From Malania oleifera (Eukaryota; Streptophyta; Magnoliopsida; Santalales; Ximeniaceae): DNA of 64,000 bases. Every line of letters starts with the position of its first letter. Position 1 is the first letter of the stretch. The DNA is taken from NCBI RefSeq assembly GCF_029873635.1, contig NC_080417.1, positions 31,422,214-31,486,213 on the forward strand, written 5' to 3'. The notes beneath the pieces are model-generated. The model made no database searches. It had not been told where the DNA came from and was given only the letters and a program-made list of their open reading frames with translations. Both the position numbers and the translations under genes were made by a program. Below are positions 7,927-57,064 of this stretch, piece after piece.

Positions 7927-7927
7927 A

Positions 7928-7941
7928 TCTCCCCCTTTTGA
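7928..7941 (-). other. Polypurine tract of the TR-GAG element
   Basis: On the minus strand TCAAAAGGGGGAGA directly precedes the 3' LTR, the usual plus-strand primer position for LTR elements. Confidence 0.75.
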
Positions 7942-14625: not shown

Positions 14626-14630
14626 AACTT

Positions 14631-21884: not shown

Positions 21885-24221
21885 TGTAACACCCCGACCC
21901 CGAGGGGTCTGGGATATTAACTTTTTACTACTGATTTACAGCGGAAGCAAATAAACTCAACTTTTATTAAACCAGAGCGCTAATCATCCATATTACAATC
22001 ATTTATTTCAAAAGAAGAAAAATTACACAAACATAAATATTGAAACCATACTAATATTTCTAATCAATCTTTATTTTTCTAATCCCCACCCGCATGCTTG
22101 CTAAGCCTGATTTCCGACATGTCCTTCAGAATTATCTGAAATAAAATATGATTGGGGTGAGACAACGCTCAGTAAGTAAATAAGATTATTATTAGTGTGT
22201 GGCCAAAATGAGCTTTTAAAAAAAATTTCGTAAAACAATATTTAATACTATAACTTCAAAACTACTTTTAGAATAAACATAAATTTAAAAAATTCCTGCA
22301 TAAAACTTTTGTCATCAATTCTAACTGTAAATTTTTATAATCATATACTATAACTGTTAAATTAAACTTTTAACTTTAAAACTGTAAAAATATTTAATGA
22401 TAAACATACATATACTTTTCCTTATACGTTTTCCTTAGATCATCATTTAAGCACCAAAATGATCCTTTTCACGTAAACTTACACTTTTCGTTCAAATCAT
22501 CAGTAACTTTGTACACGTAATTAAATATGTAGAAACATATATTGTAAAAATCACCCTTAGGCCTGTTTGCCGTAAGTCATGTTTACCCCCATGACTGGGT
22601 TGTGCGGTCCGAAGACTGGACTTAGTTGGTTGGCCGACCAAACTAAATCAACGTACGTAAACTTTAAGTGAGATTTTCCTTATTAAGTCCTGGTCCGGAA
22701 CCAGGTGTGCACTCAGGAGAAATCCACTAACATAAATAACCACTCTGTAAACAGTGTGGGTGCACTCTGATCCGTATAAACTTTAAGCTGCGGTACCGAG
22801 CATCTGTAACTTTGAACTTTCGTTGCCATAAGGGGTTTGAAATCATCTTATTATCATTTATGCAATTTAAAATAATATCGTGAAAATCTCATCTTTACTC
22901 ATATTTACATAAAAAAATGTAACGTAGAAATAAACTCATGCCACACAATTTTTGTGTTAAAAATATATATAATTTTATTTTTGAATAGAAAGAAATGCTG
23001 AAAATTTACCCGAGAGGATTGGAACATTTCTTAACCCAAAAATAGATGCAAGTATATTAAAGATAGAACTAGTATAATTAAATATACGTAAAAATAAACT
23101 CATGGAAATTTTGTGGAACTAAGTAACATAATTAAAATTTACGTACATAATAAACTCGGGTATGAATTTAAAATAAAAAGAAACTAACATAATCAAAATT
23201 TACTTACCTTCTTCTTTTACCGTGTGCTACGAACACAATAACTATCTTTAAGATATGAGATCGGAAAGAGTGGGTGATTGAGAATTTATTTAAAAATTCT
23301 CTCTCCACCACAATTTCTTTCACTCACTAATCCTTCTCTTCCTTGAAAAATTGTTGTGAAAAATGAAGGTTGAGAGCTCCCTATTTATAGGAAAATTTTG
23401 GGGAAAGAATGAAATTTATAAAAGTGTGGGGAGATGGGTGAAATTATAATTTTTAAAAATAAAGAATGGGCAAGGGATGGGTAAGGTATGGGTTGAGTAT
23501 GGGATGGGGATGGAGACCATGTGGGAGTGCTTGCCACCATTCCCATTAAATAAATTTTTAATTAATCACTTACCTAATTAATTAATCAATTAGTTAATTA
23601 ATTATTTTATTATTTTATTATTTTTCTTAATCATTATTATCATTATTATTATCATTGTTATTACTTTTAAACTATTTTGAGTATTTATTTATTTTATTAT
23701 TTATTTTTGAACAAGAATTAAATTTGAAATTTAAAAACTCATGTGAGCCCCACACGGTCTTGTGGGCCCCACACAACTTCGAGACCCAAATGGATCCTAC
23801 GTAACTCGAATAATTCTTATACGATTTTATGCATCCTAAATAGCTTTGAGACTCGTGTAAACCTCCATACGGCTTCGGGACTCATGTGGGCCCCACACAG
23901 TCTTGTGGGCCCCGCATATGATACTTACATTATTATTATTTTATCATATATTTCTACAAATTATGTCAGTCAAAACATTATTTTATGTACTTATTTACGT
24001 ATATAAACAGTGTCTACCCTGTTTATCCTATGAAATTCCATTTTGACCAGGCCGACCTCCAGGGAGCGACTGAGCCGCAATGGTCTCTGAGCACTCGCTT
24101 AGACAAGGTCTTTCTTAGGCATCAAACATGGAATCAAGGATCCTAACAGAGAAACACTTTCTTTTTTTTTAATACTAACTATTATTATTATTATTCATTT
24201 TTTTTTTCTTGGGTTATTACA
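21885..24221 (-). mobile_element. Solo LTR nested inside the Tekay 3' LTR
   Basis: The segment starts TGTAACACCCCGACCCC and ends GGGTTATTACA. It is flanked by CAACT at 21880-21884 and 24222-24226. It has no internal coding region and is about 2.34 kb long. The minus-strand TATA box (CCTATAAATAGGGAGC) is near 23378-23393, showing leftward orientation. The LTR belongs to a different family from its host. A cluster of GTGGGCCCCAC-like palindromes lies upstream of the TATA box. This is the youngest of the three nested insertions at this place. Confidence 0.88.
23741..23925 (-). promoter_or_regulatory. U3 cluster of GGGCCC palindromes
   Basis: Copies of TGTGGGCCCCACAC, TGAGCCCCACACGG and related forms recur between 23743 and 23920, upstream of the minus-strand TATA box. 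GTGGNCCC is the known core bound by plant TCP factors, so TCP binding is a reasonable inference that the sequence alone cannot prove. Confidence 0.5.
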
Positions 24222-25154
24222 CAACTACTCCATGAAACCTGAAACTTCACAGTGATTACATTACCAATACCGTGTAGCTCACATCCCACGGTGACCAGCC
24301 GGGATACGTAGTGATATTTCACACCCTCGGATAGAGTGCTGGGCACTCTCGCCCATGGTTTTCACACTGGTACATGGCGCAGGAAATTAGCCGTCACATA
24401 GCTATTTCGGCGTACGGTAATTAGCCGCCACATAGCTGTTTTACAAATACCTAGAACAATTACATACAACCATACATACCACACTTATTTGGTTTACAGC
24501 AAATCATATCGTTTTCCAATTCAACAATATAGTTTATGCAAATATGGATAATAGTCATCTCAATAATACAGTTTAAACAAAACGAACGATTTTCCAAACA
24601 AAGTAGAGATGATACCCAAAATCCCTAAATTTTCTCGAAAACTGCAACCCGAAAATCCCATATTTTTACTCGATAGATTTTCCCCAAATTAGTTGCCAAA
24701 ACATACATACGATCGTAGCCTACAAGCTTATCGATCCCGATTTCGAAAATAAACTTAAACTGAATCCCTTTACCTTAACCCGAATTCCAACTACGAACTC
24801 TACGGTCCCCAAAACTACGAACCGAGACTTCAAAACCTACAAACCACAGTACAATACATGCTTACAACTCATACTACTACACATATTTTGAATCAGAAAC
24901 GAAAATCGAGTCTTACCTTGATTTTAGCCCGAAACCCAAAAACGATTAAAACAAGATTCCCATCCGCTATAAATGTAGAGAATCCTTCCCTAATCCTCGC
25001 AGTACGTTGGATTTATGAATCAGGCGACAAATGGCGAAGAAAACTAGAGAGAGAGAGAGAGAGAGAGTTTTTCAAGTTCTAGAGAGAGAGAGAGGGAGAG
25101 GATATTTTGAGATTACTTAGCTCCAAAGTAATGGAAACTGATATTTATAGCCCT

Positions 25155-25370
25155 TTGACTTGGGTGGATTCGTCAACGAATTGGCGTCCCCGTTGACGAG
25201 TTCGCCATTACCTTCGTCGACAAAGCAGTGGCCTCGTTGACGCGCCTGAGATCCTCGGTTTCCCGAAATCTCTCGGTTTCTCCTCGTCGACGAGCCTCTG
25301 AATTTCATCGACAAGAACAGAAGGGACTTCATCGACAAACCCTGACCTTGTCCACGAATCCTACTTAATT
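25155..25370 (-). promoter_or_regulatory. U3 array of CGTCGACGA motifs in the Tekay 3' LTR
   Basis: Repeats of TCGTCGACGAG and variants such as TCGTTGACGAG lie 20-30 bp apart, upstream of the minus-strand TATA box GGCTATAAATATC near 25140-25152. The 5' LTR has the same array at 32300-32495. Confidence 0.6.
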
Positions 25371-25428
25371 TACCAATTTACCCTTCTTTCAAACATTTTA
25401 TCCATATACTATGGTTCAGGTCCTTACA

Positions 25429-30695: not shown

Positions 30696-32562
30696 TGTCA
30701 TGCCCCGAACCCGCAGATGGGTCCCAGGTGTGAATATAGTAACCTAACCTGTCTTTGTATCAATTCAAACATACATGATACAATAAGAGGGTTCGACCCC
30801 GTGAGATACACGGATGCCCTATACACACACACATATACATCGATACTCATTAGTTACGTAACGGAAAATGTTTCATTTATCTATATAACATACCATACCA
30901 GAGTCTGTACAAGACTAGGATACACAAACCTATACAATACTAAGATATACAATCCCATAAATATCGTACATACTCCGGGTGTCTACAAAAACCATTACAA
31001 TAACCCGACTACAAAATCTCGTACCTATTTAGGTACTAATAGCAGTTAAAGACACCCTCGCTTCCGATTGCTAGAATGCTAAACACGGCTACCTGATGGA
31101 CCTGAAAACATTGTACGTACATTCGGGGTGAGACACCTCTCAGTAAGGAAGAAAGCAGGTTATATCAGTGTGTGGCATGTCAGTGTTATTTTACGCAAAA
31201 CATAACACTATACAATACGATACAGTTCGAAAACATTTCCATACAATTCCATACAGTTCCAGTATTTTCACAAATGCATTCCAGTACATACGATACCCAA
31301 AACATACGGTCAGTGTCGTCACACTAATACGCAACTACGCTATGAAACCCGAAATCCCATGAAACCTGAAACTTCACAGTGATTACATTACCAATACTCT
31401 GTAGCTCACACCCCACGGTGACCCGTTGGGATACGTAGTGATATTTCACACCCTTGGATATAGAGCCAGACACTCTCGCCAACGGTTTTCGCACTGATAC
31501 ATGGCGCAGCGTACGATAATTAGCAGCCACATAACTGTTTCGGTGTACGGTAATTAGCCGTCACATAGTTGTTTTACAAATACCTGGAACAATTATATAC
31601 AACCATACATACCACACTTATTTGGTTTATGACAAATCATATCATTTTCCAATTCAAGTATACAGTTTATGCAAATATGGATAACAATCATCTCAATAAT
31701 ACAGTTTAAAAAAAACAAATGGTTTTCCACACAAAGTAGAGATGATATCCGAAATCCTCAAATTTTTCCTAAAACTGCAACCCGAAGATCTTGTGTTTTT
31801 ACCCGATAGATTTTTTCCAAATAAGTTACCAAAACATACATACGATCATAGCCTACAGGCTTATGGACCCTGATTTCGAAAATAAACTGATATAAACTGA
31901 ATCCCCTTACCTTAACCTGAATTCCAATTACAAAATCTACGGTCCCCAAAACTATGAACCGAGACTTCAAAACCTACAAACCACAGTACAATACATGCTT
32001 ACAACTCATACTACTACACATATTCTGAATTAGAAATGAAAATCGAGTCTTACCTCGATTTTAGCCTAAAACCCAAAAATGCTAAAAATGAGATTCCGAT
32101 CCACTAGTAACGTAGAGAATCCTTCCCTTATCCTCGCAGTAATGTTGGATTTACGAATCAGGTGACAAACGGCGAAGAAAACTAGAGAGAGAGAGTTCTT
32201 CAAGTTCTAGAGAGAGAGAGAGAGAGAGAGAGAAGATATTTTGAGATTACTTAGCTCCAAAGTAATAGAAATTGATATTTATAGCCCTTTGACCCGAGTG
32301 GATTCCTCGACGAATTGGCGTCCTCGTCGACGAGTCCGCCATTACCTTCGTCGACGAAGCGGTGGCCTCGTCGACAAGCTTGAGATCCCCGGTTTCCCGA
32401 AATCTCTCGGCTTCTCCTCGTCGACGAGCCTCTAAATTTCGTCAACTAGAACAAAAGTGACTTCGTCGACGAACCCTGACCTCATCGACGAATCCTGCTC
32501 AATTTACCAATTTACCCTTCTTTCAAACATTTTATCCATATACTACGGTTCAGGTTCTTACA
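30696..32562 (-). repeat. 5' LTR of the Tekay element
   Basis: Starts TGTCATGCCCCGAACCC and ends GGTTCAGGTTCTTACA (plus-strand view), 1867 bp. It matches the left LTR. The minus-strand TATA box GGCTATAAATATC is near 32274-32286. (GA)n runs are at 32187-32232. Confidence 0.9.
32300..32495 (-). promoter_or_regulatory. U3 array of CGTCGACGA motifs in the Tekay 5' LTR
   Basis: Eight or so copies of CGTCGACGA-like palindromes (for example CTCGTCGACGAG and TTCGTCGACGAAGC) lie immediately upstream of the TATA box on the minus strand. In this LTR they occupy the promoter position, so they are the best candidates for functional enhancer sites. Confidence 0.6.
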
Positions 32563-41030: not shown

Positions 41031-41568
41031 GGGTAGTGTTTGAGCTCAATAGTTTGGGCTAACCTTAAGGCCTTAAACATATTCCAAATTGAGTCAATTA
41101 GGCCAATAGCCAATAGTCTCTAGTTCATCCCAAAGATTTAGGTTTAATTAGGAACAATATCACAACACCCATAATTAATCCCCTTATGAGGCGTACTTGA
41201 ACACTTTGCATAAGGTGTGAGGAGGTGGCAACTTGATCAATATTCTTCACTTTCAAGCACAACAAGGATTAGTCAAAACAAGACGAATATGTCGATAAGG
41301 AGTGTGGGCCCAAAATGATTAAGGGTTATAGGCACATTACAATTACAAGATTAAGTCAAAATATGAAGATTTCCAAGTAGGATATCTTTGAGGTTTTTGA
41401 AGATTTCCATAGAACTTGCAATTTGGTGTCTAGCATCAATTCAACCTTTATCTCCCTGATCCCTAAGAACTCAAGTGCTTGCAACATCAAGGAATTTCTC
41501 CCAATCAACGTAGTTGGTAGTTTATATAAAATCCTATCTGAAGACCTAGTGGTAGGCTCAAACATGCA
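41031..41568 (+). mobile_element. L1 LINE fragment, left copy
   Basis: From about 41380 to 41568 the plus strand reads an L1 reverse transcriptase segment: SINSTFISLIPKN, then CNIKEFLPINVVGSLYKIL. It breaks off at AAACATGCA, where Tat element sequence begins. The whole interval is nearly identical to 55456-55992, where the same L1 continues further. Confidence 0.8.
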
Positions 41569-41923: not shown

Positions 41924-42095
41924 TAAAAAAAAAAAAAAGGTAGCCTCGTAGGTGGATACTCATCGACTATACCTCACTTACCCCCAAGGTAAATTCAGGG
42001 CATGAGACCATGTAAAGCGGGGGGAGCTGAAAACTTGAACCCGTGACCTCTTAGAGGCACAACAGGCTCCTTGCTGCTAGGCCACCAACCCAAGT
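41924..42095 (-). mobile_element. tRNA-derived SINE in the plus Tat fragment
   Basis: On the minus strand it starts ACTTGGGTTGGTGGCC. It carries a pol III box A (TGGCCTAGCAG) and a box B-like GGTTCAAGTTT about 35 bp further, and ends in a T-run. It is the same SINE, at the same site and in the same orientation relative to the element, as the one at 45088-45259. Confidence 0.8.
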
Positions 42096-42339
42096 GGTGG
42101 CCAAAGAGGGAGATTAATCACATTTAAAGTACAAGTGATGGAAAGACGGACAAAGGTCTTGAGTTCGTTAATATATGATCCTGACATCTTGAGCACCAGA
42201 CCCTTTCAAGATTGCGTGGGTAGAGAAATCTACTACGCATTTTGCCTTTGACCAGTCAAGATTGTCTGCGGGGGTCAGCAAATTTGTAGAAGCTTCAAGA
42301 CTCGGTTCAGATCACGCCATAAATTATGCGCCACACCGA

Positions 42340-43318: not shown

Positions 43319-43681
43319 AATTCTTGGCACGCCCCATCGAGGTCTCTAAGTATGCGCAACAAAGTACTACATTAAAGGGGGATCCATGGTTCATCCAATT
43401 TGGAACCTTGGAACCTATAAACGTCTCACACGTGCGGAACGCCGCCGAAGTACGCTGCCACGCAGACTTATTGAACGCCTACCTAGTCAATGCCTTACGC
43501 CCTTGTTTACGGTGTTGAAGCTGTGCCCCCACTTAAGAAACAAATACCATCGTTGTGCATGGCGATCCAAAAAGGTTTCATTGAAGAAGAAAATGCACGC
43601 CTACGATTGGAAGAGTTGGAGGCTCTAGATGAAAAAAGGCTCCAAGCACAATAGCAACTAGAGTGCTACCAGGCTCGACTT
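43319..43681 (+). pseudogene. Collapsed Tat interior: gag piece joined to integrase end
   Basis: After the primer-binding site the frame reads AQQSTTLKGDPWFIQFGTLE and INVSHVRNAAEV, equal to a gag segment at 52200-52320 of the complete element. It then jumps to sequence equal to 46930-46740, with EEENARLRLEELEALDEKR, the end of the integrase core. About 5.3 kb is missing between them. The segment ends at GGCTCGACT, where LTR B begins. Confidence 0.8.
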
Positions 43682-44822
43682 TGTTCGCCACAAATCTCAC
43701 ACCCTTTGGAATTTGTAGGGAGACGAAAAATGCAAGAGAAAAAAATAAAGAAAAATACAAACTATAAAATTATACAATAGAATGTATATTAAAATTTCGC
43801 TGGTACAACCTTTGGTTTTTCTTCTGATTAATCCTCCTTTGGAATTCCGTCGAGGGCTGCAATAGCTTGATCTCTGGCGGAATATTTTGTTTGGGAAGTA
43901 AAAATAGCTGGATCTTTGGAGGGGTTGATATGTGAAATTTAGGAAATTTGAAGGTCAAATTTGTAAGGATGTATTTGACCGTTGGTAGACAAAAAGAAGA
44001 GAGTTTGGATTTGCCTTTTGCTAGCAAAGTGATTGGTGTGTAGGAAAAATAATGGATGGATGTGTAGGAGGGATAATGAGTGGGTGTGTGGGAGGAGTGA
44101 TGAGTGGGGTAAGGTCTTTCAACTTTCTCTCTCTTGCTTTCCTTCTTTCTTTGGTGTTGGAGGAGATGCAAGAGTTTTGTGTTTTTTGCTGAAGCTGGCA
44201 GCAAGAGGGAAGGCCGGAGTTGCTTGATGCTTGATCTTTTTTGTTTTTTTTTTTTGATCCTTGTCTTGTCTCAGCAAGAGGGCTAGATATTTATAGGCGA
44301 GATCTGATCTCGCCATCTTCATTCAATGATGTGGACGTGTAACGAATTTCGGCATTGGAAATACCATTCTTTTCTTCCTCGATGGTGACGTTCTTGACTG
44401 GTTACTTCAAATTTGACGTCGCCGGAGAACGTCTTCTGCTTCGATGGTGACATTTTTGACAAATAGGGTTCAAATCGGGCAATTTTCTCAACTTTGATGG
44501 TAGTTCTTTTGGCAAAAGTCGCAAATACGGCGAGTCTCTCAATTTTGGCAGCGGCACTTTCGGCAAAAATTGCAGATCCAGCGAGTTTCTCAACTTTGGC
44601 GGTGACACTTTTGGCAAAAGTCGCAGATTCGGTGTCGAATGTGATTTTGAATTTTGTATTATTTGTTCACATCTTTGTATTTTTGTACGCTTAGAGGGCG
44701 TATTTTTATACATATGTATTTTTTTGTCACTTGTACTCTTACAAAGTGTATACATATGTATTTGCATTTTTACTTTTATTTATTATTATTATTTTCTTCT
44801 TTTCAAAATTTTGGTGTTTAAA
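43682..44822 (-). repeat. Tat LTR B (3' LTR)
   Basis: Plus-strand view begins TGTTCGCCACAAATC and ends GGTGTTTAAA (CA decayed to AA). The minus-strand TATA box CTATAAATA is near 44290-44298, next to the palindrome GGCGAGATCTGATCTCGCC. The ~50 bp repeats with GGCAAAAGTCGCA lie at 44490-44640. Confidence 0.88.
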
Positions 44823-44842
44823 AATGCCCCCACTTCAAGTCT
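44823..44842 (-). other. Polypurine tract of the complete Tat element
   Basis: On the minus strand GACTTGAAGTGGGGGCATT precedes the 3' LTR. Confidence 0.75.
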
Positions 44843-45087
44843 CAGTGTGGCGCATAACTTGTGACGTGATCTGAACTGAGTCTTGAAGTTTCTGTAGATT
44901 TGCAGACCCCCGTGGACAATCTTGACTAGTCGAAGGCAAAATGCGTAGTAGATTTCTCTGCCCATGCAGTCTTGAGAGAGTTTGGTGCTCAGGATGTCGG
45001 GATCATGTACCGTCAAAAACTCAAGACCTTTGTTTGTCTTTCCATCACTTGTGCTTTAAATGTGATTAATCTCCCTCTTTGGCCATC

Positions 45088-45259
45088 ACTTGGGTTGGTG
45101 GCCCAGTGGCAAGGAGCTTGTTGTGCCTTTAAGAGGTCACGGGTTTGAGTTTTTGGTTCCCCTTGCTTTGCCCAAGTGGTCTCATGCCCTGGATTTACCT
45201 CGTGGGTAAGTGAGGTATAGCCGATGAGTATCCACCTACGAGGCTACATTTTTTTTTTT
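45088..45259 (+). mobile_element. tRNA-derived SINE inside the Tat element
   Basis: Starts ACTTGGGTTGGTGGCCC with box A TGGCCCAGTGG and a box B-like GGTTTGAGTTT, and ends in a T-run. CCATC lies immediately on both sides (45083-45087 and 45260-45264), which fits a target duplication. It is antisense to the host element. A T-tailed SINE with tRNA-type promoters is typical of plants. Its copy in the plus fragment shows it was inserted before the two Tat copies diverged. Confidence 0.82.
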
Positions 45260-45307
45260 CCATCCTTTTAGATAAATTGAGATAGATCAAATCTTTCATG
45301 TCTTTGT

Positions 45308-46129
45308 CTAACGAATGTGTGGGGGCCCGAGTCTGAGGCTTAGGTCAATGCTAGCAGCGGTTGGAGTGCTTGTAGCGTCACTGCTACTTGTTGTGGATCT
45401 CGTCCGACGGCGATAGACTCTGGGAATGTCACTGGCATAAGCTGGGAAAAGCTGAAGAGTACCTCCTTCTACGACGTGAGAAGAAGAGTCTCCTCTTTTC
45501 TCGGTGGCCCGGGGTTGGGATGTTCAAAATGACTGGAGTTGATCCCTCCTAGTAACGAGTTGCCCCTTGGATGCCAGTACGTTCGCCTTAGTGCATGCCA
45601 AATCTGGTTGAAATGGTAGTGCAGGCTAGGATTGCTAGAAACCCCCGTCGTGGTGACTGCGGCGTGAGCAACATATACAGTAATACCTGTCGGAGCGATG
45701 AAGGTGGTAAGCTCTACAGTCGGAGCATTGACGGTGAGAGTAGCAACAAGAGGAGCAGTGGTCAAGGTAGTGGTGTGAGCACTACTTGGTGTGGCGACAG
45801 TGGAAGTGGTGAGATCAAGGGCCAGTGGAGTCTTTGTAGCAGCAGTGAGATCAATGGTTAGCGGGGGTCTGGCTAGCAGTCCGCTCGATCAGCCCCTTCT
45901 TGTGATACCATTGATTTTCGAACTAGAAGCGTACATCCTTTGGTTCGACTGAGCCATATTGTTGGAGCTTTGTTGTGAGCAAGTAAACTAGTTTCGGGGA
46001 AGGAAGTTCCCCCTTGTAGTGAAATGCCGCCTCTAGGATCTCTAGTTGTTCCCTTTCGGGTGTCCATCTAGGGGTTGATGAACTTGCATTGCCCCCTATA
46101 GTTTGTGTCGTTGGGTGATTTGGCATCAT
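45308..46129 (-). pseudogene. Captured WUSCHEL-type (WOX) homeodomain gene inside the Tat element
   Basis: From the ATG at 46129 the frame reads a homeodomain with WOX spacing: PRWTPEREQLEILEAAF, then GELPSPK, then KLQQYGSVEPKDVRF. A TAG at 45925-45923 then stands where the invariant tryptophan of WFxN belongs, and FENQWYHKKG follows. A T/A/V-rich linker of about 100 residues continues in a shifted frame (about 45860-45500). After a 1-base loss relative to the plus copy, the original frame returns with EGGTLQLFPAYASD (WUS-box, 45460-45443) and SIDLSLRLG (LxLxL, EAR-like, 45346-45329), stopping at 45310-45308. Homeodomain, WUS-box and stop are in the same frame, so the ancestor was a single protein of about 270 residues, a normal WOX size. 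WOX proteins are DNA-binding regulators of stem cells. This copy is broken by one stop and two frameshifts. I infer transduction of a host gene. Confidence 0.75.
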
Positions 46130-46238
46130 CTTTGTGGTGAAAGTCGCCTTGGCCAAACGGAAGAAAGAAGGAGATGATTGGGCAGGATAGCTAGGAAGAA
46201 TGAGTTTGAGTGGCTCGCTTTTTTACCATACCCACCTC

Positions 46239-46245
46239 TTTTATA
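46239..46245 (-). promoter_or_regulatory. TATA box upstream of the WOX-like frame
   Basis: TATAAAA within GCTATAAAAGAGG on the minus strand lies 110 bp before the ATG of the WOX-like frame. This leaves room for a leader of about 80 bases. It is separate from the LTR promoter. Confidence 0.5.
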
Positions 46246-46499
46246 GCAAAACTTATCAAAATTCAAAGTTGGTAGGTTGCTTATTTTTGACATTGTGAAC
46301 AGCCGGCACCAACAAGAGCAGCCGCTGGTGTCGCAAAGATTGACGAAGCAGCAGGCGACTGTTCTAAATTATTCCTCCTTACCCCTTACCTACCACATGC
46401 TTTTTTTTTTATTTTTTGATTTTTTTTTGTTGGGCTGTTCACAGTTTATACTCTTGTGGGTTAAGAGTGCGGCGGACACAAAGCAAAGCCTTACGTGCA

Positions 46500-47660
46500 G
46501 TAGCGCTTTAGGAACTTGCCATTTATTGGGCCAATGCCAATGCCTTCATGGTCGAGTAGCATGTAAGCATTGTTTGTGTAGGCTTCTTGCACCAAGTATG
46601 GACCATCCCATTTGGAGGTGAGCTTATCGCCCGGTCGGTGTTTCAGATTGATAGGTCGTCATACTGCGAGAACTAAGTCTCCAACTTGGAATGATCGCGG
46701 GCGGACTTTGCGGTCAAAGGCCTTGGTGAGTCAAGCCTGGTAGCTCTTTAGTTGCTGTTGTGCTTGGAGCCTTTTTTCATCTAGAGCCTCCAACTCTTCC
46801 AATCGTAGGCGTGCATTTTCTTCTTCAGTGAGACCTTCTTGGATCGCTATGCGCAGCGATGGTATTTGTTTCTCAAGTGGGAGCACAGCTTTAACGCTGT
46901 AAATAAGGGCGTAAGGCGTTGATTGGGTAGGCATTCGATAAGTCGTACGGTATGTCCATAATGCTTCGAGAACCGTATCATGCCAATCCCGTTTTGTCTT
47001 GGAGGCCACTTTGCGCAGTAAGTTGCAAAGGGTCTTGTTGAATGCTTCGGACAATCCGTTAGCAGGAGCATTGTACATGGAAGACTTGTACTGTTTGAAG
47101 ATGAACTTCTCGCAGAGTGTATCCATTATGCTATTGTAAAATTGCTTTCCATTGTCGGTGACGATGAACCATGGAATACCGTAGTAGTAGATCATGTGGG
47201 TCTTGATAAAGTTCACGGCGTGCTCCTTCTTCACTTTTCTAAGTGGGATTGCTTCAGCCCATTTAGAAAAGTAATTTGTTGCTGCCAGTATGTACAGGTG
47301 GCCAAGGGAGGACTTTGGCAGTGGTCTGACCCAGTTGAGGCCCCATGCTTCAAAGGGCTAAGATGCTACGGTGGGGTGTAGAGGCTCTGGTGGCTGATGT
47401 ATATAATTTGCATGGAATTGACATGCTCGACAAGTCTTAGCGTATTCCATGGAATCATGCACCATCGTGGGCCAATAGTATCCCATCCTTTTGATTTTAT
47501 GGTGAAGTTTCAGTTCGGATTGATGTGCGCTGCACATGCCAGAGTGAGCTTCTTTTAAAGCCTGCTTCGCCTCGTCGCCATTTAAGCATCGTAGAGTCCA
47601 TCGAAGGATCTTCAATACAATGTATCTTTGTAGTATATGTATCGAGCGGCGTGTAGACAC
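46500..47660 (-). pseudogene. Tat integrase, with one in-frame stop
   Basis: The zinc-binding domain is at 47560-47410 (AHSGMCSAHQSELKLHHKI, then CRACQFHANYIHQPP). A TAG near 47358 separates it from the core, which begins PFEAWGLNWVRPLPKSS; the first catalytic aspartate is asparagine. IVTDNGKQFYN and LSEAFNKTL keep the second aspartate and the glutamate. After GYxxTYRMPTQSTPY the C-terminal domain continues to about 46500 with KLTSKWDGPYLVQEAY and GKFLKRYCT. The enzyme would join element cDNA to the chromosome. Despite the good preservation this copy should be inactive. Confidence 0.87.
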
Positions 47661-48357
47661 AACTCTGTCCTGTGATGACGATCTTTAGGAAGCCTTCCAT
47701 GCTGCAAATAGTCAATAATGGGTTGTTTCCAGTCCTCAATTTTGATGACGTAGACGGATATGGCATATCTTTCCTCTTCTTCTTCATCTTCGATTAGTGG
47801 TACAACCCATTTCTGGCATACAGTAACGATTGCTCTCTGGCTATCTAATTTGGCTAGTGACGTGGCTAGGTTGGCTAGCGCATCTGCTTGACAATTCTCC
47901 TGCCTTGGGATATGCTCCAAGACAATGCTTTCAAACTCTTCTAGTAGACATTGGGCGTACTTGTGATATGGCACAAGATCTTTCTTTTGACGTTTTATCA
48001 TCCAGAGAGTTGGTTGATGACGAGTTGTGAGTCGCCGTATACTTCAAGCACAGGAATTTTCATGTCAGTGGCCATTTGGAGGCCAATGATCAATGCTTGA
48101 TATTCGGTGACTTTGTTTGAGCATAGTTCACCGAGGATGAATGCGTACGACAACACTTGGCATTGAGGAGTAAGAAATACTACACCGGCACCATCACATC
48201 GTGCGGCTCCGTCAAAGTACATTGTCCACGGTGGCAAGATGTCTATTTGGAATACTTCCTCGTCTGGGAGGTCGTATGTAAATTCGTAATCAGATGGAGC
48301 CGGATGATCCGCTAGAAAATCGGCAAGAGCTTGTCCCTTAACCGCCTTTTGTGACAC
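47612..48357 (-). pseudogene. Tat second RNase H (archaeal type)
   Basis: The block starts with KAVKGQALADFLADHP and then WTMYFDGAARCDGAGVVF. All catalytic residues are present: D in YFDGAA, E in TEYQALI, D in VYGDSQLVINQL, and the last D in CQADALANLATSLA. Two adjacent stops near 48000 separate the last block from the rest. This extra RNase H follows the ordinary one, the defining feature of the Tat clade. It would degrade the RNA strand during cDNA synthesis. Confidence 0.87.
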
Positions 48358-48402
48358 ATAGATGATGTCGTAACTTTGTAGTATAACTACCCACTTAGCG
48401 AA

Positions 48403-50099
48403 TCATCCGAATAGGACCGGTCTGGATAGTACATATTTTACTGGGTCAGCTCTTGCAATGAGGTGGATTGTGTGGGATTGCATATAATGCTTCAGCTTAT
48501 CGACAGCGAAGAAGAGTGCCAGACACGTCTTTTCAATGGGCGAGTAATTTAGCTCCGGACTAGCCATCGTCCTGCTTAGGTAGTAGAGTGCTACCTCCTT
48601 TCTTTGCTCATTTTCTTGGGCAAGTAAAGCTCCTAAGGATCTTTCTTTTGTGGCAATGTAAAGAATCAACGACTTTCCTTGGATGGGTGCACCGAAGATT
48701 GGTGAATTTGAGAGACAATCTTTTATGCTTTGGAAAGCTTTGGTGCATGCCTCGTTCCACTCAAAGTCAACTCCTTTTTTCATTAATTGGTTGAAGAGTT
48801 GACATTTCTTGCTAGATTGGAGATGAAGCGTCGGATGTACGCCAACTTTCCTTGAAGACTTCGTAGCTCTCTCAAATTCTTGGGCTCTGGCATGTTTTGG
48901 ATGGCATCGATCTTTGATTGGTCAACTTCGATGCCGCGATGGCGTACAATAAAGCTGAGAAACTTGCCGGATGAGACGCTAAATGCGCATTTAAGAGGAT
49001 TCATCTTTAGATGGTACTTTTGGAGCCTATCGAACACCAATTTGAGATCTTGCAGGAGTTCATTATGCTTCTTTGTCTTCATGACGAGGTCATCGACATA
49101 ACATTCCACCTTCTTATGGAGTAGGTCATCAAAGATCTTTTGCATGGCACGCTGGTAAGTGGCACTAGCATTCTTTAGCCTAAAGGGCATCACTTTGTAA
49201 CAGTGAATCCCTTTTGGCGTGCGGAAGGCTGTGGGTTCTTCGTCCTCCGGGGCCATCCTTATTTGATTGTAACCAGAAGACCCGTCCATGAAAGATAATG
49301 CCTCGTGACCAGTAGTCGCATCCACCGTGATTTCTGTTATGGGTAGGGGAAAATCATCTTTTGGACATGCCTGGTTGAGATCCCTGAAGTCAATGCGGAC
49401 TTGGAGTTGTCTATTCTTCTTCCGGACGAGAACTATGTTTGCAATCCATGTCAGATATGTGACTTCTTGGATGAAACCCGCATTGATTAACTTGTTTACT
49501 TCTTCTTCGATTAGCAGGATAAGCTCCGGGCGAAATCGACGTTGGGGCTGCTTCACTAGTCGCAAGCCTTTCTTTGTAGCCAAACGATGCACCACAATTC
49601 TTGGTTCAAGGCCAGACATCTCCTTGTACCTCCATACAAATACATCCTTGTATTGACTCAGTACTTGGACGTATTCTTCTTCTTCTTCTTGTGTGAGTAA
49701 GGCGCTTACGAAGGTAGGTCGAGGATCCTCTGGAGTGCCGAGGTTGACTTCTTTGAGCTCGTCAATGGTGGCTTGGCCACCATCCTCTAGCTCTAGAGGA
49801 GCGTCCTCGATTTCGCTGTCTGACAAATGAGGTTCGGTTTTCTCATTGATTGTGATGTGGTGTGACATGTATGAGGACTCTTTCTCTCTTTCCTTTTTGT
49901 CGTGACCACCCCTCTGAGCTTGGGTGTCGATTCGACCTTTGTTTGTTAGCATTCCTTCGATGTTGACTTCTATGGTCATCTTATTCTTTTTCCAAGATGG
50001 AACTTTATCAAATTCATAGGCATGTTGGTTTGACAGTGATGGTTCGCCTAGCCTTTGGAAGACCGACATTCTCTTTATGCCTAAAAGTTGTTTGAACAC
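48403..50099 (-). pseudogene. Tat reverse transcriptase and first RNase H
   Basis: A 438-codon frame (50099-48783) holds the complete polymerase core: VRIDFRDLNQACPKDDFPLP, EALSFMDGSSGYNQI (first catalytic aspartate), TYQRAMQKIF and CYVDDLVMKTK (paired aspartates), then GKFLSFIVRHRGIEVD. The next frame (48783-48403) is the RNase H-like connection, with FEWNEACTKAFQSIK and LYYLSRTMASPELNYSPIEK. The polymerase part shows no stop and keeps its catalytic residues, so it is the best preserved coding block in the window. A TGA separates it from the second RNase H. Confidence 0.88.
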
Positions 50100-50854
50100 A
50101 TATTTCCGAGGTCAAAGATTTGGTCCTCGGATGCGTCCAAACACTGTGCCTTGAGGCTTTGATGATTGGGGCTTTTTCGTCCCATTGATCATTTGATTTT
50201 GCGCAAGATCGGGTTCTCTAATGCAATCAAGCATTGAACCGTGATATGTTGCTGTAGGGGGGCTTTCTTCTTCGTTGGTCACCCGAACCGCGATGATGCA
50301 TGTATTCGCCGATTGCCTATTACTCCTTAAGGTGATGCGAATGGGAGACTTTTGTTGATAACCCAAACCCGGCCGAGTCTTAGGAGGTTGAGTGACATCT
50401 TTGGTGCATTTTCCCACTAGTGGGCTTACTGGTTTTGGATTCTTGAAATCATGTCCAGCTTTTGCTAAAAGTTTGTAGGCGTTAGGGTCAAACCCTTCAT
50501 CGGTTCTCTTATTCGGGAGTGCACCATGTTCGATTGCCCCCTTTGTTGGCCGGACGAATCCCTTTAATGGTTTGGTGGTCACCACTGGATCTATCGTTTG
50601 CATTGGTAGGGATAGTGCATCCCTCAGAACACGAAATGTCTTCGGGGTTTAGACTGCCACATCTTTCCTTTGGCTGGGGATCAATATGGTGACAAGAAGA
50701 TTCCTCCTTGTTGCATGGCTTATCTTTCTTTGAGGCTTCCTATTGTCGGAACCTTTGATGCGATGGCCTCGTAGTTGCCCATATCTTTGTAGAATACTGC
50801 GTCGGCTAGGTGGGCCTTAGCTTCGGCGAATGGTTTCAAGTCAGCGTTGACTTT

Positions 50855-51277
50855 TTAGATGCCGTTCTTGTAGTACTTGAAACACTGATGTAGACTTGAC
50901 AAAATGGTCCCATTTCCATGGGTCCTGGGGCGGCCTAACAGCATCTTGTATGCTGTTTGTGCATCGATCACATGTAATAGGGTGCTGGATGTGAGGTCGC
51001 CAATGGTAAGGTCTAGGTGGACCATGCCAATTGCTCGTTGGCCCCCTTGATTGGAGCCTTGAATCATTAATCTACTTTTGGACAGTTCGTTGATGTTGAT
51101 GCCGAGCTCTTTCATGGTGGTTTTTGGGATGATGTTGATTGCGGATCCATCATCAATGAGGATGCGGCTGATCCTTTGTTCTTTACCATACCCTGAGATG
51201 TACAAGGGCCGGTTGTGGGGCTTTGACCCCAACAAAAAATCTTCGTCTGAAAATGCGATCATTGAGTAACACAGCAC
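50855..51277 (-). pseudogene. Tat aspartic protease
   Basis: The 140-codon frame contains RILIDDGSAINIIPKTTMKE (catalytic aspartate in the D-G-S-A form usual for Tat) and MLLGRPRTHGNGTILSSLHQ. It lies between gag and the polymerase. The following stretch to 50112 encodes a poorly conserved linker. It would process the Gag-Pol precursor. Confidence 0.8.
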
Positions 51278-51292
51278 ATAGATTTGTTGTGT

Positions 51293-54044
51293 CTAATTGT
51301 TGTGCATCGTCGCATCGTTTTGGGTCAAAAGCCTTGCCAACTCTTGAAGAGTCAAGGTGGCTTGATTTCGCACCGCTTCAGAGGACTGCATTAAAGAATG
51401 CAATTGGGAGTTCGTGAGGAGATCTTGGAGAGTTTTTGATACCTCATCTTCCACTGGGTGACATTTGTCATGCTGCTGACACTTAGGCTCCTCCTTGATG
51501 ACGTTTATGGACATCATATGGACGGCGAAACTTTGGGTTTGTGAGAAGAAGTCTTCAGGAAAGAAATCCATTAGGGTGATGAGAGAGGGCCTTCCTTGCA
51601 CCATTTCTTCCTTGTTCTTGGTGTCGATGTTTCGCATGACTTTCGTCTTGCGAGACTTCTTTTTCTGGAGAGGTGGGTGAGACCTTCTTTTGTGTAGCAT
51701 CCTTCTTCATAGTGATGGTGTTGCTGATATCCTATTTGCTTGGTGTGGTCTTCTAGTCTTCACCACGGTCCACCCTTCTTCGAGTTCCTTGTGGATGGCT
51801 TGTTTGCTGAGCTTGGCATTGGTGTTGGGTCTCGAAGGGTAGACTTCAGCGGGGTGCGGTAAGGCTGGACTTCTTTTACTTTTTTTACTTTTCCTTGATT
51901 TGGTGATAAATGTGGACCATCCATCGCCGATTTTATCCTCTGATTCTAATGAAGACGCCCAGACCTTGAGGTCATCGGTCATGAGTTCATATAGAATCGG
52001 GATATTTGGGTTACCATCCCGGAGCATATTTGGATAATCGTAGACCTCTTTGACATCTTGGTCTACTATGAACTGGACACATATTGCCTCTTTAGGTAAC
52101 TTGGGTCCTTCCTCTTTTGTCTCGAAGGGCTGCTTGTTTTGAGGTGGTGGTGTTTCACGTGGCTCCCCTTTTGCTGTCAGGGTCCGTTGCCTTTTGTTTG
52201 TTGCATGGGAGCATACTTCAGCGGCGTTCCGCAGGTGTGAGACGTTTATAGGTTCCAAGGTTCCAAATTGGATGAACCATGGATCCCCCTTTAATGTAGT
52301 ACTTTGTTGTGCAGGCTTAGAGGCCTCGGTGGTGATGGTGGCATGATTTGCCTCGGCAACGTCATCCTTGTCTAGGACAATCTTGTTTTGATTTTTCAAC
52401 CTAATGATCAGTTCCTTTAGTATGAAGCATTTCTTTGTTGGATGACTGACTATGCGATGATATTTATAGAATTTTGGATCTTCGACCTTGTGCTTTTCAT
52501 CCGGATGCTTGGGCTCCGACAGCTCTATGAGTTTGGCCTTCAAGAGCTGGTCCAAAATAGTACATCGGAGTCTGGGATCGGATATTTCCTCTGCTCCAAT
52601 TCTTGCAGCTTCGTCATTGGCTTCTCTTGCTGCTTTGGTGGATTGGGCAAGATTGGAGTATTTGCCTTCGTCTTTGCCCTGACCTTGACGAGTGTGGCGT
52701 TGATGGTTATTGTTTCCTTATCCTTGGCTGGCTTTTCAGTCCTTTTGACCTCTTTCCTTTCTCGACGTTGGTCCACGTGGAGCACTGGGTCTTTGCCCCC
52801 AGAGGTGGCGATGCTTATCTCCATGTCATGAGCTTGAGTTGCAAGTTCCTCAAAGGTGTGAGGCTTGATACCTTGGAGGATGTAGAACAACTCCCAGTGC
52901 ATTCCTTGGATGCACATCTCCACAGCGGAAGTCTCAGTTAGGTGGTCTTTGCAGTCCAAGCTCAGCGGGCGCCATCTGTTGATGTACTCAACAATTGGTT
53001 CATCTTTTCTTTGCTTGGTGTTGGTGAGCTCCATCATGCTTATAGTGCGTTGGGTGCTGAAGAATGTATTGAGGAACTCTCTCTCAAGTTGTTCCCATAT
53101 GTCAATGTATTTTGGTTCGAGATTGACGAACCACTCGAATGCATTGTCCTTCAGAGATTGGACAAATTGTTTGACCAACAGATCATCGTATGTTCCCGCG
53201 TTGTTGTAGGTTTTGATGAAATGGGCTATGTGCTGCTTTGGATTACCTCTTCTGTCAAATTATTGGAATTTGGGCAATTGATAGCCCAATGGCATCCTTA
53301 TCCGCTCAATCCTTTGTGAATAAGGCTTTGCATAGGTTTGAGAGCCTTGGTTGAGCCCACCTTGTTGTAGCCCTGTAGTTTTAGCTATCATATCTTGCAG
53401 TTGTTGGACTAATAGCGAGGCAACGGAGGTTGACGGCGCTATATATGCGGGTTCAGCTTGAGGTCTTTTTGCTGTAGAAGTGTTGGCTGGTGTGGCGTGT
53501 GGAGCAAAATCGGGAGGATACAGTTGCTCTTCACCAGATTCAAGATCAACTTGGGCTTTCTCTTTTAAGAAAGCATTCTGTTGATCCTTATCTTCGAGAG
53601 CTTTAGCTAGCATCAATATCTTGCTTTCCAATTCGACAATCCTTTCATCTGCGTTTGCTGTGTTTGCAGTCATTACTGCGACGTTGGCTTCGACAGATGA
53701 TCCTTTGTGGAAGATTGGGGTAGATGGTTCCATTGCGCCATCCTTGTTTGACATAGTGAAGTAGTTTAGGTTTTGCTGTCGAAGGGAGATTGGAGGTAAG
53801 TAGCTGCCCCCAAGCTCGATGTCAGTCGGTGTAGACAATCGGCTTCTCCATGCTTCGAGAGAGTCGAGTGACAGTTCTGGATCTTGAAGGAACTATCGGT
53901 CTTCCGGATTCATAAGCGCCATGGAGGCGAGAGCTTGAGTTCGCCTGCGGGTCTCTGGGCCAATGTAGTCGGGTAAGGTTGTGGCGGCTGACAATGGAGT
54001 GGTGACCTTTCTTTTGTCAGCAGTGGCGTTCTTCCTTGGTGCCA
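51293..54044 (-). pseudogene. Tat gag, interrupted by stops
   Basis: Starts MAPRKNATADKRKVTTP (ATG at 54044) and is broken by a TAG near 53893 and a TAA near 53257. The capsid block is at 53178-52900 (FVQSLKDNAFEWFVNLEPKY and LEREFLNTFFSTQRTISM). The zinc-like C-terminal block is near 52500-52430 (FYKYHRIVSHPTKKCFILK). A further gag-linker frame follows at 51700-51293. The N-terminal part has a heptad-like helix (DERIVELESKILMLAKALED). It would build the particle. Confidence 0.83.
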
Positions 54045-54230
54045 TGTGTTCACCAACTGCAATATTTTTGTTTGTTTTTTTTTTCTTTCCCCTCAAGGCC
54101 CTTTTTTAAAAAAAAAATTTTTTAGGCCTTTTTCTTTTTTCCCCTCCTTTTTTTTGGCCTCTTTTTTATTTTATATTTTTTTCTCGAGGCTTTTTTTTTT
54201 TTTCAAAAAGGAAGAGATGAGGGGCAAAGT

Positions 54231-54255
54231 CGTCCCACCGGGCGTGCCAAGAATT
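54231..54255 (-). other. Primer-binding site of the Tat element
   Basis: TTGGCACGCCCGGTGGGAC on the minus strand lies 6 bases inside LTR C, and the same site follows LTR A. The initial TGG is as expected for a tRNA 3' end. Which tRNA it pairs with is not determined. Confidence 0.7.
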
Positions 54256-55455
54256 TGTTTGCTACAAATCTTGCACCCTTTGGACTTTGTAGGGAGACGA
54301 AAAATGCAAGAGAAAAAAATAAAGAAAACTACAAACTACAAAATTATACAGTAGAATGTATATTAAAATTTCACAGGTACAACCTTTGGTTTATCCTCTG
54401 ATTAATCCTCGGGAATTCCGTCAAGGGCCGCAGTAGCTTGATCTCTGACGTAATATTTGGTTTGGGAGTTGAAGTAAAAATAGCTGGATCTTTGGAGGGG
54501 CTGATATACGGAATTTAGGAAATTTGAAGGTCAAGTTTGCAAGGATGTATTTGACCGTTGGTAGACAAAAAGAAGAGAGTTTGACTTTGCCTTTTGCCAG
54601 CAAAGTGATTGGTGTTTAGGAAAATAAATGGACTAATGTGTAGGAGGGATAATGAGTGGGTGTGTGGGAGGAGTGATGAGTGGGGTAAAGTCTTTCACTT
54701 TTTTCTCTCTTGCTTTCCTTCTTTCTTTGGTGTTGGAGGAGATGCAAGAGCTTTGTGTTTTTTGCTGGAGCTGGCAGCAAGAGGGAAGGCCGGAGCTGCT
54801 TGATGCTTGATCTTTTTTTTTGTTTTTGTTTTTTGTTTTATCCCTAACTTGTTTTAGCAAGAAGCCTGGGTATTTATAGGCGAGATCCGATCTCGCCGTC
54901 TTCATTCGATGATGTGGACGCGCAACGAATTTCAGCATTGGCAACACCATTCTTTTCTTCCCCGTTGGTGACATTCTTGACTGGCTACTTCAAATTCGAC
55001 GTCTCCGACGAACGTCTTCTACTTTGATGGTGACATTATTGACAAATGGGGTTCGGATCGGGTAATTTTCTCAACTTTGGCTGCAGTGCTTTTGGCAAAA
55101 GTCGTAGATCCGGTGAGCTTCTCAACTTTGGCGGCGATATTTTCTGCAAAAAGTCGTAGATCCGGTGGGTCTTAATTTTGGCGGCAACATTTTCGGAAAA
55201 AGTTGCAGATCTGGCGGGTTTCTAAACTTTGGCGGCGACACTTTCGGCAAAAGTCGCAAATCCGGCGCCGAGTGTGATTTTGAATTTTGTATTATTTGTT
55301 CACATTTTTGTATTTTTGTATGCTTAGAGGGCGTATTTTTATGCATATGTATTTTTTTGTCACTTGTATTCTTACAAAGTGTATACATATGTATTTGCAT
55401 TTTTACTTTTATTTATTATTATTATTTTTTTCTTTTCAAAATTTTAGTGTTTACA
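54256..55455 (-). repeat. Tat LTR C (5' LTR)
   Basis: Plus-strand view starts TGTTTGCTACAAATC and ends TTTAGTGTTTACA. The minus-strand TATA box CTATAAATACCC is near 54870-54881, beside the palindrome GGCGAGATCCGATCTCGCC. The ~50 bp tandem repeats with CTTTGGCGGCGA and GGCAAAAGTCG lie upstream of it at 55060-55268. The right flank is L1 sequence. Confidence 0.9.
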
Positions 55456-57064
55456 GGGTAGTGTTTGGGCTCAATATTTTGGGCTAACCTTAAGGCCTTA
55501 AACATATTCCAAATTGAGTCAATTAGGCCAATAGCCAATAGTCTCTTGTTCATCCCAAAGATTTAGGTTTAATTAGGAACAATATCACAACACCCATAAT
55601 TAATCCCCTTATGAGGCGTACTTGAACACTTTGCATAAGGTGCGAGGAGGTGGCAACTTGATCAATATTCTTCACTTTCAAGCACAAGAAGGATTAGTCA
55701 AACAAGACGAATATGTCGATAAGGAGTGTGGGCCCAAAATGATTAAGGGTTATAGGCACATTACAATTTCAAGATTAAGTCAAAATATGAAGATTTCTAA
55801 GTAGGATATCTTTGAGGTTTTTGAAGATTTTCATAAAACTGGCAATTTTGTGTCTAGCATCAACTCAACCTTTTATTCCCTGATCCCAAAGAACCCAAGG
55901 ACTTGCAACATCAAAGAATTTCTCCCAATCAACGTAGTTGGTAGTCTATATAAAATCCTATCTGAAGTCCTAGTGGTAGGCTCAAACATGCAATTTCGGA
56001 AGTTGTCAGAAAGCATCAACACACCTTTATTGCAAATAGGCGAATCATGGATGCTGCTCTGATTGTCAATGAAGTTGTTGATACTCACACGAAGGGTGGG
56101 AAAAGAGGATTGTGGTGCAAGTTGGATATGGAGAAGTCTTTTGACCATGTTAACTGGATATTTCTGTTGTACATTCTCAAAAGAATGGGTTTTTGGGAAT
56201 CTTGATGCAGATGGATACGTTAGTGTATCTGAACCTCATCTTTTTTGGTTTTGGTAAATGGTTGCTCTTTTGGTTTCTGCAAATTTTCTCATGGTCTAAG
56301 TCAAGGTGACCCCCTCCCCCCTTTTATTTATCATGGTCATGGAAGTGCTGAATCTTATGATGTATAATGCAAATGAAGGCAGTCTTCTTAAGGGACTTAG
56401 CATTGGAAAGCGGAAGGCCCAATGACTCTATGGAAATCACCCACCTCCTTTTTGCAGATGATGCTATCATCTTTTGTGAGGATGAGCTAGAGCAAATTCT
56501 TAATAAAAGTTGCATTTTCCTCGATTTTGAAGCGTTTTTAGGCTTAAAAGAAAATCTGGGCAAAAGTGAGATTTTATTCTAATAAGGACTTGCGATCAGG
56601 TTCCTTTTCTTGCAAGTATCCTTGGCTGTAAGTGTGGAGCCTTCCCTATTTCTTATCTCAGCCTCCCCTTAGGAGCCGAGTTTAAGGATAAGGGTATTTG
56701 GGGAACCCATCATCGGCAAGTTCGAAAAGAAACTTGTTGGTTGCAAAAGGAACTTTTGTCAAGATAGACTCGCCTCATTAATTGTACTCTGTCCGACCTC
56801 TTGGTTAACTTAATGTCTCTTTTCCCCATGTGTTATATAGTTTCCAAGAGATTGGAGGGCATCTGAAGAAGATTCCTTTGGGGAAACACGAGTGAGGTTT
56901 TCCAATATCATCTTGTTAAATTGGGAGTGGTTAAACAATGTTCACAAAAGGGCAGCCTTGGCCTTAGATCTCTTATTATCTTTAATAAGGCCTTTTTGGG
57001 GAAACGACTTTGGTGATTCATGATAGGGAAAAATTACTTGTAGAGGGATGTTATTGTTGTCAAG
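55456..57064 (+). mobile_element. L1 LINE, reverse transcriptase part, right copy
   Basis: 55456-55992 repeats 41031-41568. The reading then continues through the L1 polymerase: AALIVNEVVDTHTKGGKRG, WCKLDMEKSFDHVNW (56113-56160), SQGDP near 56300, HLLFADDAIIFCEDE (56445-56490), and GLKENLGKSEILF. The post-polymerase block follows in several frames to 57056. Frameshifts and stops make it inactive. The catalytic FADD is intact. The LINE is cut at TTGTCAAG by the hAT-like element and resumes at 63049. Confidence 0.85.

Follow-up and report, generated by a model that had tools for sequence, protein, structure and literature searches.

Can an LTR retrotransposon make a developmental regulator of its host its own and, if so, to what end? 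The question is raised by a stretch of 64,000 nucleotides of Malania oleifera (contig NC_080417.1), here called the window. An original prediction had placed a captured WUSCHEL-type transcription factor gene there, on the sense strand of a Tat retrotransposon between integrase and 3' LTR. Position, sense orientation and motif order are confirmed, and so is the proposed length of about 270 residues: ATG to stop comprises 822 nt. Our reading, to which we assign a probability of roughly 0.6, is that an old WOX capture became an accessory gene in two LTR lineages, where it would act in trans as a repressor-type regulator.

The Tat element of the window

The carrier is an old and decayed LTR element (43677-55453, minus strand), the LTRs of which are 87-88% identical by self-blastn, with a K2P divergence of 0.106 (Table 1). 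Its domains, as identified by Pfam, follow in the order gag, protease, reverse transcriptase (RT), RNase H, second RNase H and integrase. According to the available text of PMC6317226, angiosperm Tat elements (Ogre, Retand) can be told by an additional RNase H (aRH) that separates the first one from integrase. By this criterion the window element belongs to the Tat lineage of Ty3/gypsy.

Direct repeats of 539 bp, 95.9% identical, lie on either side of the element (41031-41568 and 55456-55992), one of them beginning 3 bases beyond the 5' LTR; the element may be nested inside another repeat. Two more LTR-like direct-repeat pairs (88-92%) are found in the window at 6040-7927 / 12802-14626 and at 24230-25428 / 31357-32562.

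Table 1. Features of the window discussed in the text
Feature	Position	Strand	Basis and remarks
Solo LTR of the second family	21885..24221	-	blastn 88-96% to L036 LTR pieces; AGTTG on both sides (minus strand)
3' LTR of Tat element	43677..44820	-	self-blastn, K2P 0.106; boundaries approximate
WOX-type gene, decayed	45308..46129	-	ATG 46129; TAG 45923-45925; middle in other frame; stop 45308-45310
C-terminal DLSLRL (EAR-like)	45329..45346	-	sequence
WUS-box TLQLFP	45443..45460	-	sequence; homologous C-terminal block in 15/20 Tat-type copies
T/A/V-rich linker, open solely in a different frame	45472..45888	-	frame reading
WOX-type homeodomain, broken by TAG	45893..46072	-	frames, PDB matches, tree
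TATA box (TATAAAA), 116 bases upstream of the WOX ATG	46239..46245	-	sequence
Integrase, zinc-binding and core domains, two ORFs	46731..47684	-	Pfam Integrase_H2C2 2.8e-10; rve 1.6e-6, below cut-off
Second RNase H (aRH type, RVT_3), two frames, Tat mark	47612..48402	-	Pfam RVT_3 2e-9 and 3.3e-5
RNase H of Tat element	48406..48921	-	Pfam RT_RNaseH_2 4.3e-23
Reverse transcriptase of Tat element	48786..50111	-	Pfam RVT_1 1.3e-25
Protease of Tat element	50858..51292	-	Pfam gag-asp_proteas 3.5e-4, below cut-off
gag of Tat element	52543..53259	-	Pfam Retrotrans_gag 1.5e-14
Probable primer binding site TTGGCACGCCCGGTGGGAC, right behind the 5' LTR	54232..54250	-	sequence
5' LTR of Tat element	54251..55453	-	self-blastn, K2P 0.106; boundaries approximate

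The WOX-type gene is read from two minus-strand frames. The stop-to-stop frame 45923-46222 starts the protein with MMPNHPT...PRWTPEREQLEILEAAFHYKGELPSPKLVYLLTTKLQQYGSVEPKDVRF and then runs into a TAG; the frame 45308-45523 reads ...GGTLQLFPAYA...IDLSLRLGPPHIR up to the terminal stop. The distance of 46222 minus 45523 is 699, i.e., 3 x 233, and the two frames are thus identical. The claim that homeodomain, WUS-box and stop share one frame therefore holds for the start of the homeodomain, the box and the stop, but this frame contains a TAG, and the middle part (45469-45888) with the linker is open solely in another frame. The window copy must accordingly be classed as a pseudogene: it has one stop and no fewer than two changes of frame.

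The nature of the encoded protein

In the WUS (modern) clade of WOX proteins a WUS-box, TLxLFP, lies downstream of the homeodomain. A C-terminal EAR-like motif, LxLxL, is also typical of the clade, although it is missing from some members. The homeodomain binds DNA, while the WUS-box and the EAR-like motif recruit TOPLESS.

Even the broken window copy can be recognised. A piece of 68 residues matches WUSCHEL (6ry3, E=1.8e-5) and STENOFOLIA (6wig, 3.4e-4) as the sole PDB entries at E<=1, and the reading from 46129 to 45923 thus finds its WOX homeodomain. The Pfam search that had also been proposed was less favourable to this piece (Homeodomain, E=0.0021, below cut-off), because the TAG truncates the domain; intact relatives pass. 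The 230-residue ORF of one of them, L036, scores 9.3e-9 against Pfam Homeodomain (35.4 bits, cut-off 22.9) and a second intact copy 2.4e-8. In the PDB, L036 retrieves WUSCHEL (1.8e-10) and STENOFOLIA (4.2e-10), and the only other match at E<=1 has a value of 0.31.

The C-terminal motifs point in the same direction. In the window copy the box is TLQLFP and the terminal motif DLSLRL, a true LxLxL; a TLxLFP box with a terminal LxLxL-type motif appeared in 0/200,000 composition shuffles of the C-terminal block, the motifs having been picked after they had been seen. The young relatives described below mostly have VLSLFP, which is close to the box, and end in DVDLRL or DVNLRL, which is VxLxL, not LxLxL. 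Shuffling of L036 yielded the loose pair of WUS-box and terminal motif at a frequency of 5.5e-5 and the strict pair 0 times.

Judged by its sequence, the retroelement ORF is a gene of a WOX-type homeodomain protein. That it is instead an ordinary retroelement frame or one open by chance is so improbable that it hardly deserves consideration, even though the homeodomain is at best 41% identical to those of host WOX proteins and the window piece stays below the Pfam cut-off. A chance frame is rejected, since intact copies pass Pfam Homeodomain, match WUSCHEL and STENOFOLIA and have WUS-box and terminal motif in order. An ordinary Tat frame is rejected, as related Tat-type copies carry the same WOX-type gene behind the integrase. 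A third candidate, an unlinked host WOX gene interrupted by the element, fails because the gene is multi-copy inside LTRs.

Copies in the Malania genome

Searching the genome with the 68-residue homeodomain piece yielded at least 150 scored matches among 682 candidates, all of them at E<=1. The first 20 are 69-100% identical to the piece and are Tat-type. Their 3.2-kb loci contain the integrase in 15/20 cases, the C-terminal block in 15/20 and at least one of both in 20/20; two of them, L012 and L013, are near-identical neighbours. Other Tat copies with the insert, for which the original prediction had proposed a search, thus exist (about 20), and what stands behind their integrase is the same WOX gene, not another retroelement frame.

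Most of the other matches are about 50-56% identical, many having open frames of 236-253 codons. Of these, 37 were fetched, 17 as 10-kb and 20 as 1-kb loci. They comprise 36 members of a second LTR family and a single Tat-type copy (L060). In 24/37 the ORF is open over at least 225 residues; it is not in the other 13, one of which is Tat-type. All 24 open ORFs terminate in DVDLRL or DVNLRL, and their WUS-box-like motif is mostly GVLSLFPT. The sample is biased toward open copies, because the loci were drawn from protein matches.

Protein databases contribute little. The only match was LOC131144967, an annotated M. oleifera protein, a relative that lacks the C-terminal part and differs in its N-terminus; the Tat-type query retrieved nothing from these databases, which probably contain few transposon frames. 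A structure prediction of LOC131144967 from the single sequence reached a mean pLDDT of 34 and was discarded.

At several places WOX ORFs follow each other in the same orientation at a distance of 5.3-5.8 kb (C1:29.24, C1:68.24, C2:95.94, C4:124.24, C6:84.61, C7:96.28 and C8:100.64 Mb). This spacing suggests arrays of the type LTR-internal-LTR-internal-LTR.

A second, young LTR family

The idea that Tat is the sole carrier has to be abandoned: those copies that are intact and have transposed recently belong to an LTR family unrelated to it. An LTR pair (2.2-3.1 kb aligned) was found in 13 of the 17 ten-kb loci, with a K2P divergence of 0.0007-0.027, i.e., the insertions are young. In clear cases the LTRs run from TGTGATGACCC to GTGTTACA (TG..CA). 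The primer binding site, TTTGGTATCAGAGC, is of the tRNA-Met type, a polypurine stretch is present, and 5-bp target duplications can be seen by eye in L023, L024, L027 and L029. The family therefore has the LTR pair, TG..CA ends, PBS, PPT and target-site duplication of an LTR retrotransposon. A blastn comparison of its LTR with that of the window Tat element gave no match. Judging by its ends and the polypurine stretch, it is presumably Tekay/Del-like.

The internal part of L036, about 2.9 kb, comprises an AT-rich leader, a reverse tRNA-like SINE and tandem repeats of about 80 bp, followed by a TATA box, the WOX ORF and the polypurine tract. No gag-pol frame, Tekay-type RT or chromodomain was read in this region. 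Seven of its nine non-WOX frames of at least 60 residues were scanned, the two others being antisense over the WOX ORF, and none of the seven had a Pfam match above cut-off. An autonomous partner was not seen. The family is apparently non-autonomous, with the WOX ORF as its only recognised gene. Older members, L033 and L037, show the same build and are 74-89% identical to L036 in aligned pieces of at least 500 bases.

Is the ORF a regular part of the family? The L036 leader was searched for, and among the best 40 of 2180 candidates 28 had a WOX ORF among the matches of the two homeodomain searches, with the window piece and with Arabidopsis WUSCHEL. Eight further leader-bearing places were fetched and contained the ORF region in 8/8 (presence, not openness, was scored). 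This amounts to 36/36 places examined, out of 40.

Reverse tRNA-like, SINE-like stretches, 72-75% similar, occur near the WOX ORF in both element families at differing positions (window 45028-45259 and 41924-42129; L036 4193-4416). The WOX element copy in L037 is followed immediately downstream by antisense frames (6416-9677, minus strand) that resemble a copia-type pol.

The ORF in both lineages, and its probable origin

The ORFs of the two lineages are homologous. At the DNA level, the Tat and young ORFs are 68% identical over about 220 bases, starting at the ATG; the C-terminal half of the young ORF matches the C-terminal blocks of Tat copies with E down to 2e-12, and the N-terminal MxPNHP is common to both. 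The leaders and 3' flanks have no homology between the lineages and are not alignable, and so lend no support to a shared promoter. Both lineages have a TATA box in a comparable position: at -126 in 4/4 young copies and at -115 to -124 in 12/16 Tat-type copies, with a closer one in 3/16 and none in 1/16 (the count covers those of the 20 Tat-type copies in which the match starts before residue 9).

Host WOX genes were searched for with the Arabidopsis WUSCHEL homeodomain, the best 150 of 641 candidates being scored. By sequence, we presume them to include WUS, WOX1, WOX3, WOX4, WOX5, WOX9, WOX11 and WOX13 types. A homeodomain tree was built from nine retroelement and 14 host rows, the latter taken from at least 19 host-like places with WUS duplicates left out. 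Such a tree had been suggested with the original prediction. It unites 9/9 retroelement homeodomains in one clade (100/100), yet on a long branch apart from the 14 host WOX, not among them; long-branch attraction may have affected their place relative to the host clades. Identity to the 14 host homeodomains never exceeds 41%, and the nearest one is WOX1, WOX13 or WOX9, depending on the retroelement copy. A recent copy of host WUS is rejected because of this low identity.

In the host WUS gene (L078) the homeodomain and the LETLPLFPMH/SLELSL parts are in separate exons, with splice sites judged by eye. The retroelement ORF, in contrast, is uninterrupted, sense to PBS and PPT, and inside the LTRs. 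The lack of an intron fits capture from spliced RNA. The proposed transduction of a host WOX gene thus stands insofar as the gene is WOX-derived, intronless and sense, but none of today's host regulators can have served as a recent template. The single clade and the low identity to the host genes rather argue for an old capture, probably shared between the lineages later.

The alternative is that the gene was captured twice, once by Tat and once by the Tekay-like lineage, from a single host WOX relative that has since been lost or has diverged too far to be seen, with no transfer between the elements. The unalignable flanks and the start of detectable homology right at the ATG would suit this scenario. 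The common clade of the nine retroelement homeodomains, apart from the 14 host WOX, and the MxPNHP shared by their ORFs speak against it, and no such host gene is present among the best 150 of 641 candidates. We consider it rather improbable.

We return to a single old capture. A spliced host WOX transcript of the WUS-clade type would have been taken up long ago, in the ancestry of Malania, by an LTR retrotransposon. It would have become an accessory gene and then have moved between Tat and Tekay-like lineages, and is now placed after the integrase in Tat elements and, as the sole recognised gene, in the apparently non-autonomous Tekay-like family.

Selection

Constraint was estimated from the N-terminal and homeodomain block of four young and three Tat-type copies. 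With kappa set to its estimate of 4.0, dN/dS between the lineages is 0.37-0.52; a kappa of 3 gives 0.34-0.47, one of 5.59 gives 0.41-0.57 and one of 1 gives 0.20-0.30. These values are rough, because dS amounts to 0.7-1.05 (kappa 3 to 5.6) and the Tat-type copies are just three. They indicate constraint on the homeodomain between the lineages. Within the young family, omega computed from five representatives is 0.72 (bootstrap 0.52-0.97); by parts it is 0.66 for the homeodomain (0.30-1.61, which includes 1) and 0.87 for the linker (0.59-1.35). The ORF of the young family diverges at about the same rate as its flanks. The evidence for past constraint on the ORF is fair, that for present constraint weak, and the purifying selection that the original prediction had wished to see tested is accordingly discernible between the lineages and less so among the young copies.

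These data bring up a serious rival. The WOX ORF could be useless to the elements, a mere passenger kept open solely by recent insertion from a few open masters. The young-family omega with its upper bound of 0.97, the equal divergence of ORF and flanks, the 13/37 copies that are not open over 225 residues (including the Tat-type one), and the lack of leader homology and of a binding-site signal (see below) are all as one would then expect. What a useless gene does not readily account for is the motif trio and homeodomain kept across lineages at a dS of about 0.7-1.05 and an omega of 0.34-0.57, the positional TATA boxes, and the ORF region in all 36 leader-bearing places examined of 40. On balance we regard it as unlikely.

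Possible function

If the gene does serve the elements, how? The WOX ORF is probably a sense transcription unit of its own, considering the TATA box some 115-126 bases upstream of it in both lineages. Since the homeodomain, the WUS-box-like and the terminal DLxL-type motifs have been kept, a nuclear, DNA-binding and TOPLESS-recruiting role of the repressor type is the most likely one. Such a regulator would act in trans and would serve expression or transmission of the elements, not development of the host. Transcription, DNA binding, TOPLESS recruitment and a benefit to the element are what we infer, as are the route of capture and the transfer between elements. That a stem-cell regulator may have been spread, as the original prediction put it, is accordingly a conjecture. 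WUS sites were not enriched in those LTRs and the leader of the elements that were tested.

A bolder version would have a WUSCHEL-family repressor, as a shared accessory gene with its own transcription unit, regulate the elements or the host stem cells, with the effect that copying takes place in cells feeding the germ line. This is doubtful. If true, the retroelement WOX gene would be the plant counterpart of a host-derived viral regulatory gene.

Relation to known systems

The literature searched, which did not extend to subscription papers, yielded no description of plant LTR elements that carry a WOX or homeodomain gene. In the available text of PMC11963269, PMC13317346, PMC7264820 and PMC3726574 'WUS' and homeo- words do not occur, nor do homeo- words in that of PMC9289625 and PMC6317226. 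In PMC9289625 a survey of 121 genomes is reported that turned up 15 non-canonical domains; B3 is among the ones named in the accessible part, a homeodomain is not. Published screens for extra ORFs could have missed the gene, which has about 230 codons and sits in elements without RT seen: as far as the accessible texts tell, one required 250 codons (PMC6317226) and another started from RT domains (PMC9289625).

Related phenomena are known, and the following comparisons refer to the available parts of the papers. The 2-ODD (m6A demethylase) gene of Phalaenopsis Ty3/Gypsy elements is likewise a conserved additional ORF that became fixed in a Gypsy family of many copies and was kept over several subfamilies; it encodes, however, an enzyme and is confined to one family, while the Malania ORF is of the transcription-factor type and present in two LTR lineages, of which one appears to be non-autonomous (PMC9289625). 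Closest in position are the antisense TRP28 (Transposase_28) ORFs of Retand, accessory ORFs between pol and 3' LTR in Tat that are proposed to encode a DNA-binding regulator. Their origin is unknown, whereas the Malania ORF is sense and WOX-derived; none of the sense ORFs of the Retand survey encoded known domains (PMC11963269). Extra ORFs of one type in unrelated retroelement lineages have been seen in bdelloid rotifers, but these are animal and enzymatic (PMC5408684). Finally, maize Bs1 and other transduced genes exemplify plant LTR elements with host coding sequence. Bs1 carries segments without a full-length ORF, in contrast to the full-length ORF in many copies of Malania (PMC13317346, PMC7264820), and PMC7264820 describes the transduced ORFs of plant LTR elements as occurring once or a few times.

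In Malania, a large family (at least 150 scored places) regularly carries a gene for a developmental transcription factor, the motifs of which are of the DNA-binding and repressor type, and this gene occurs in two element lineages. It can now be tested whether a stolen WOX gene provides retroelements with a transcription programme of their own or lets them interfere with meristem regulation. With host WUS and the WUS-clade WOX the gene shares the succession of homeodomain, WUS-box or a motif close to it, and an EAR-like end, the latter LxLxL in the window copy and VxLxL in the young family; it differs by being intronless, carried by retroelements and at most 41% identical in the homeodomain to the host members compared.

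The host genes themselves show some peculiarities. Besides WUS there are seven further WUS-like homeodomain loci (C1:44656760-44686224, C13:48345872 and C435:36127), five of which lie within 30 kb on C1; a TAG is seen in 4/7, and a recent amplification of WUS in Malania is possible. Another locus, L071 (C2:15438880), has an odd host WOX-type homeodomain that is 44% identical to WUSCHEL and forms a long branch of its own.
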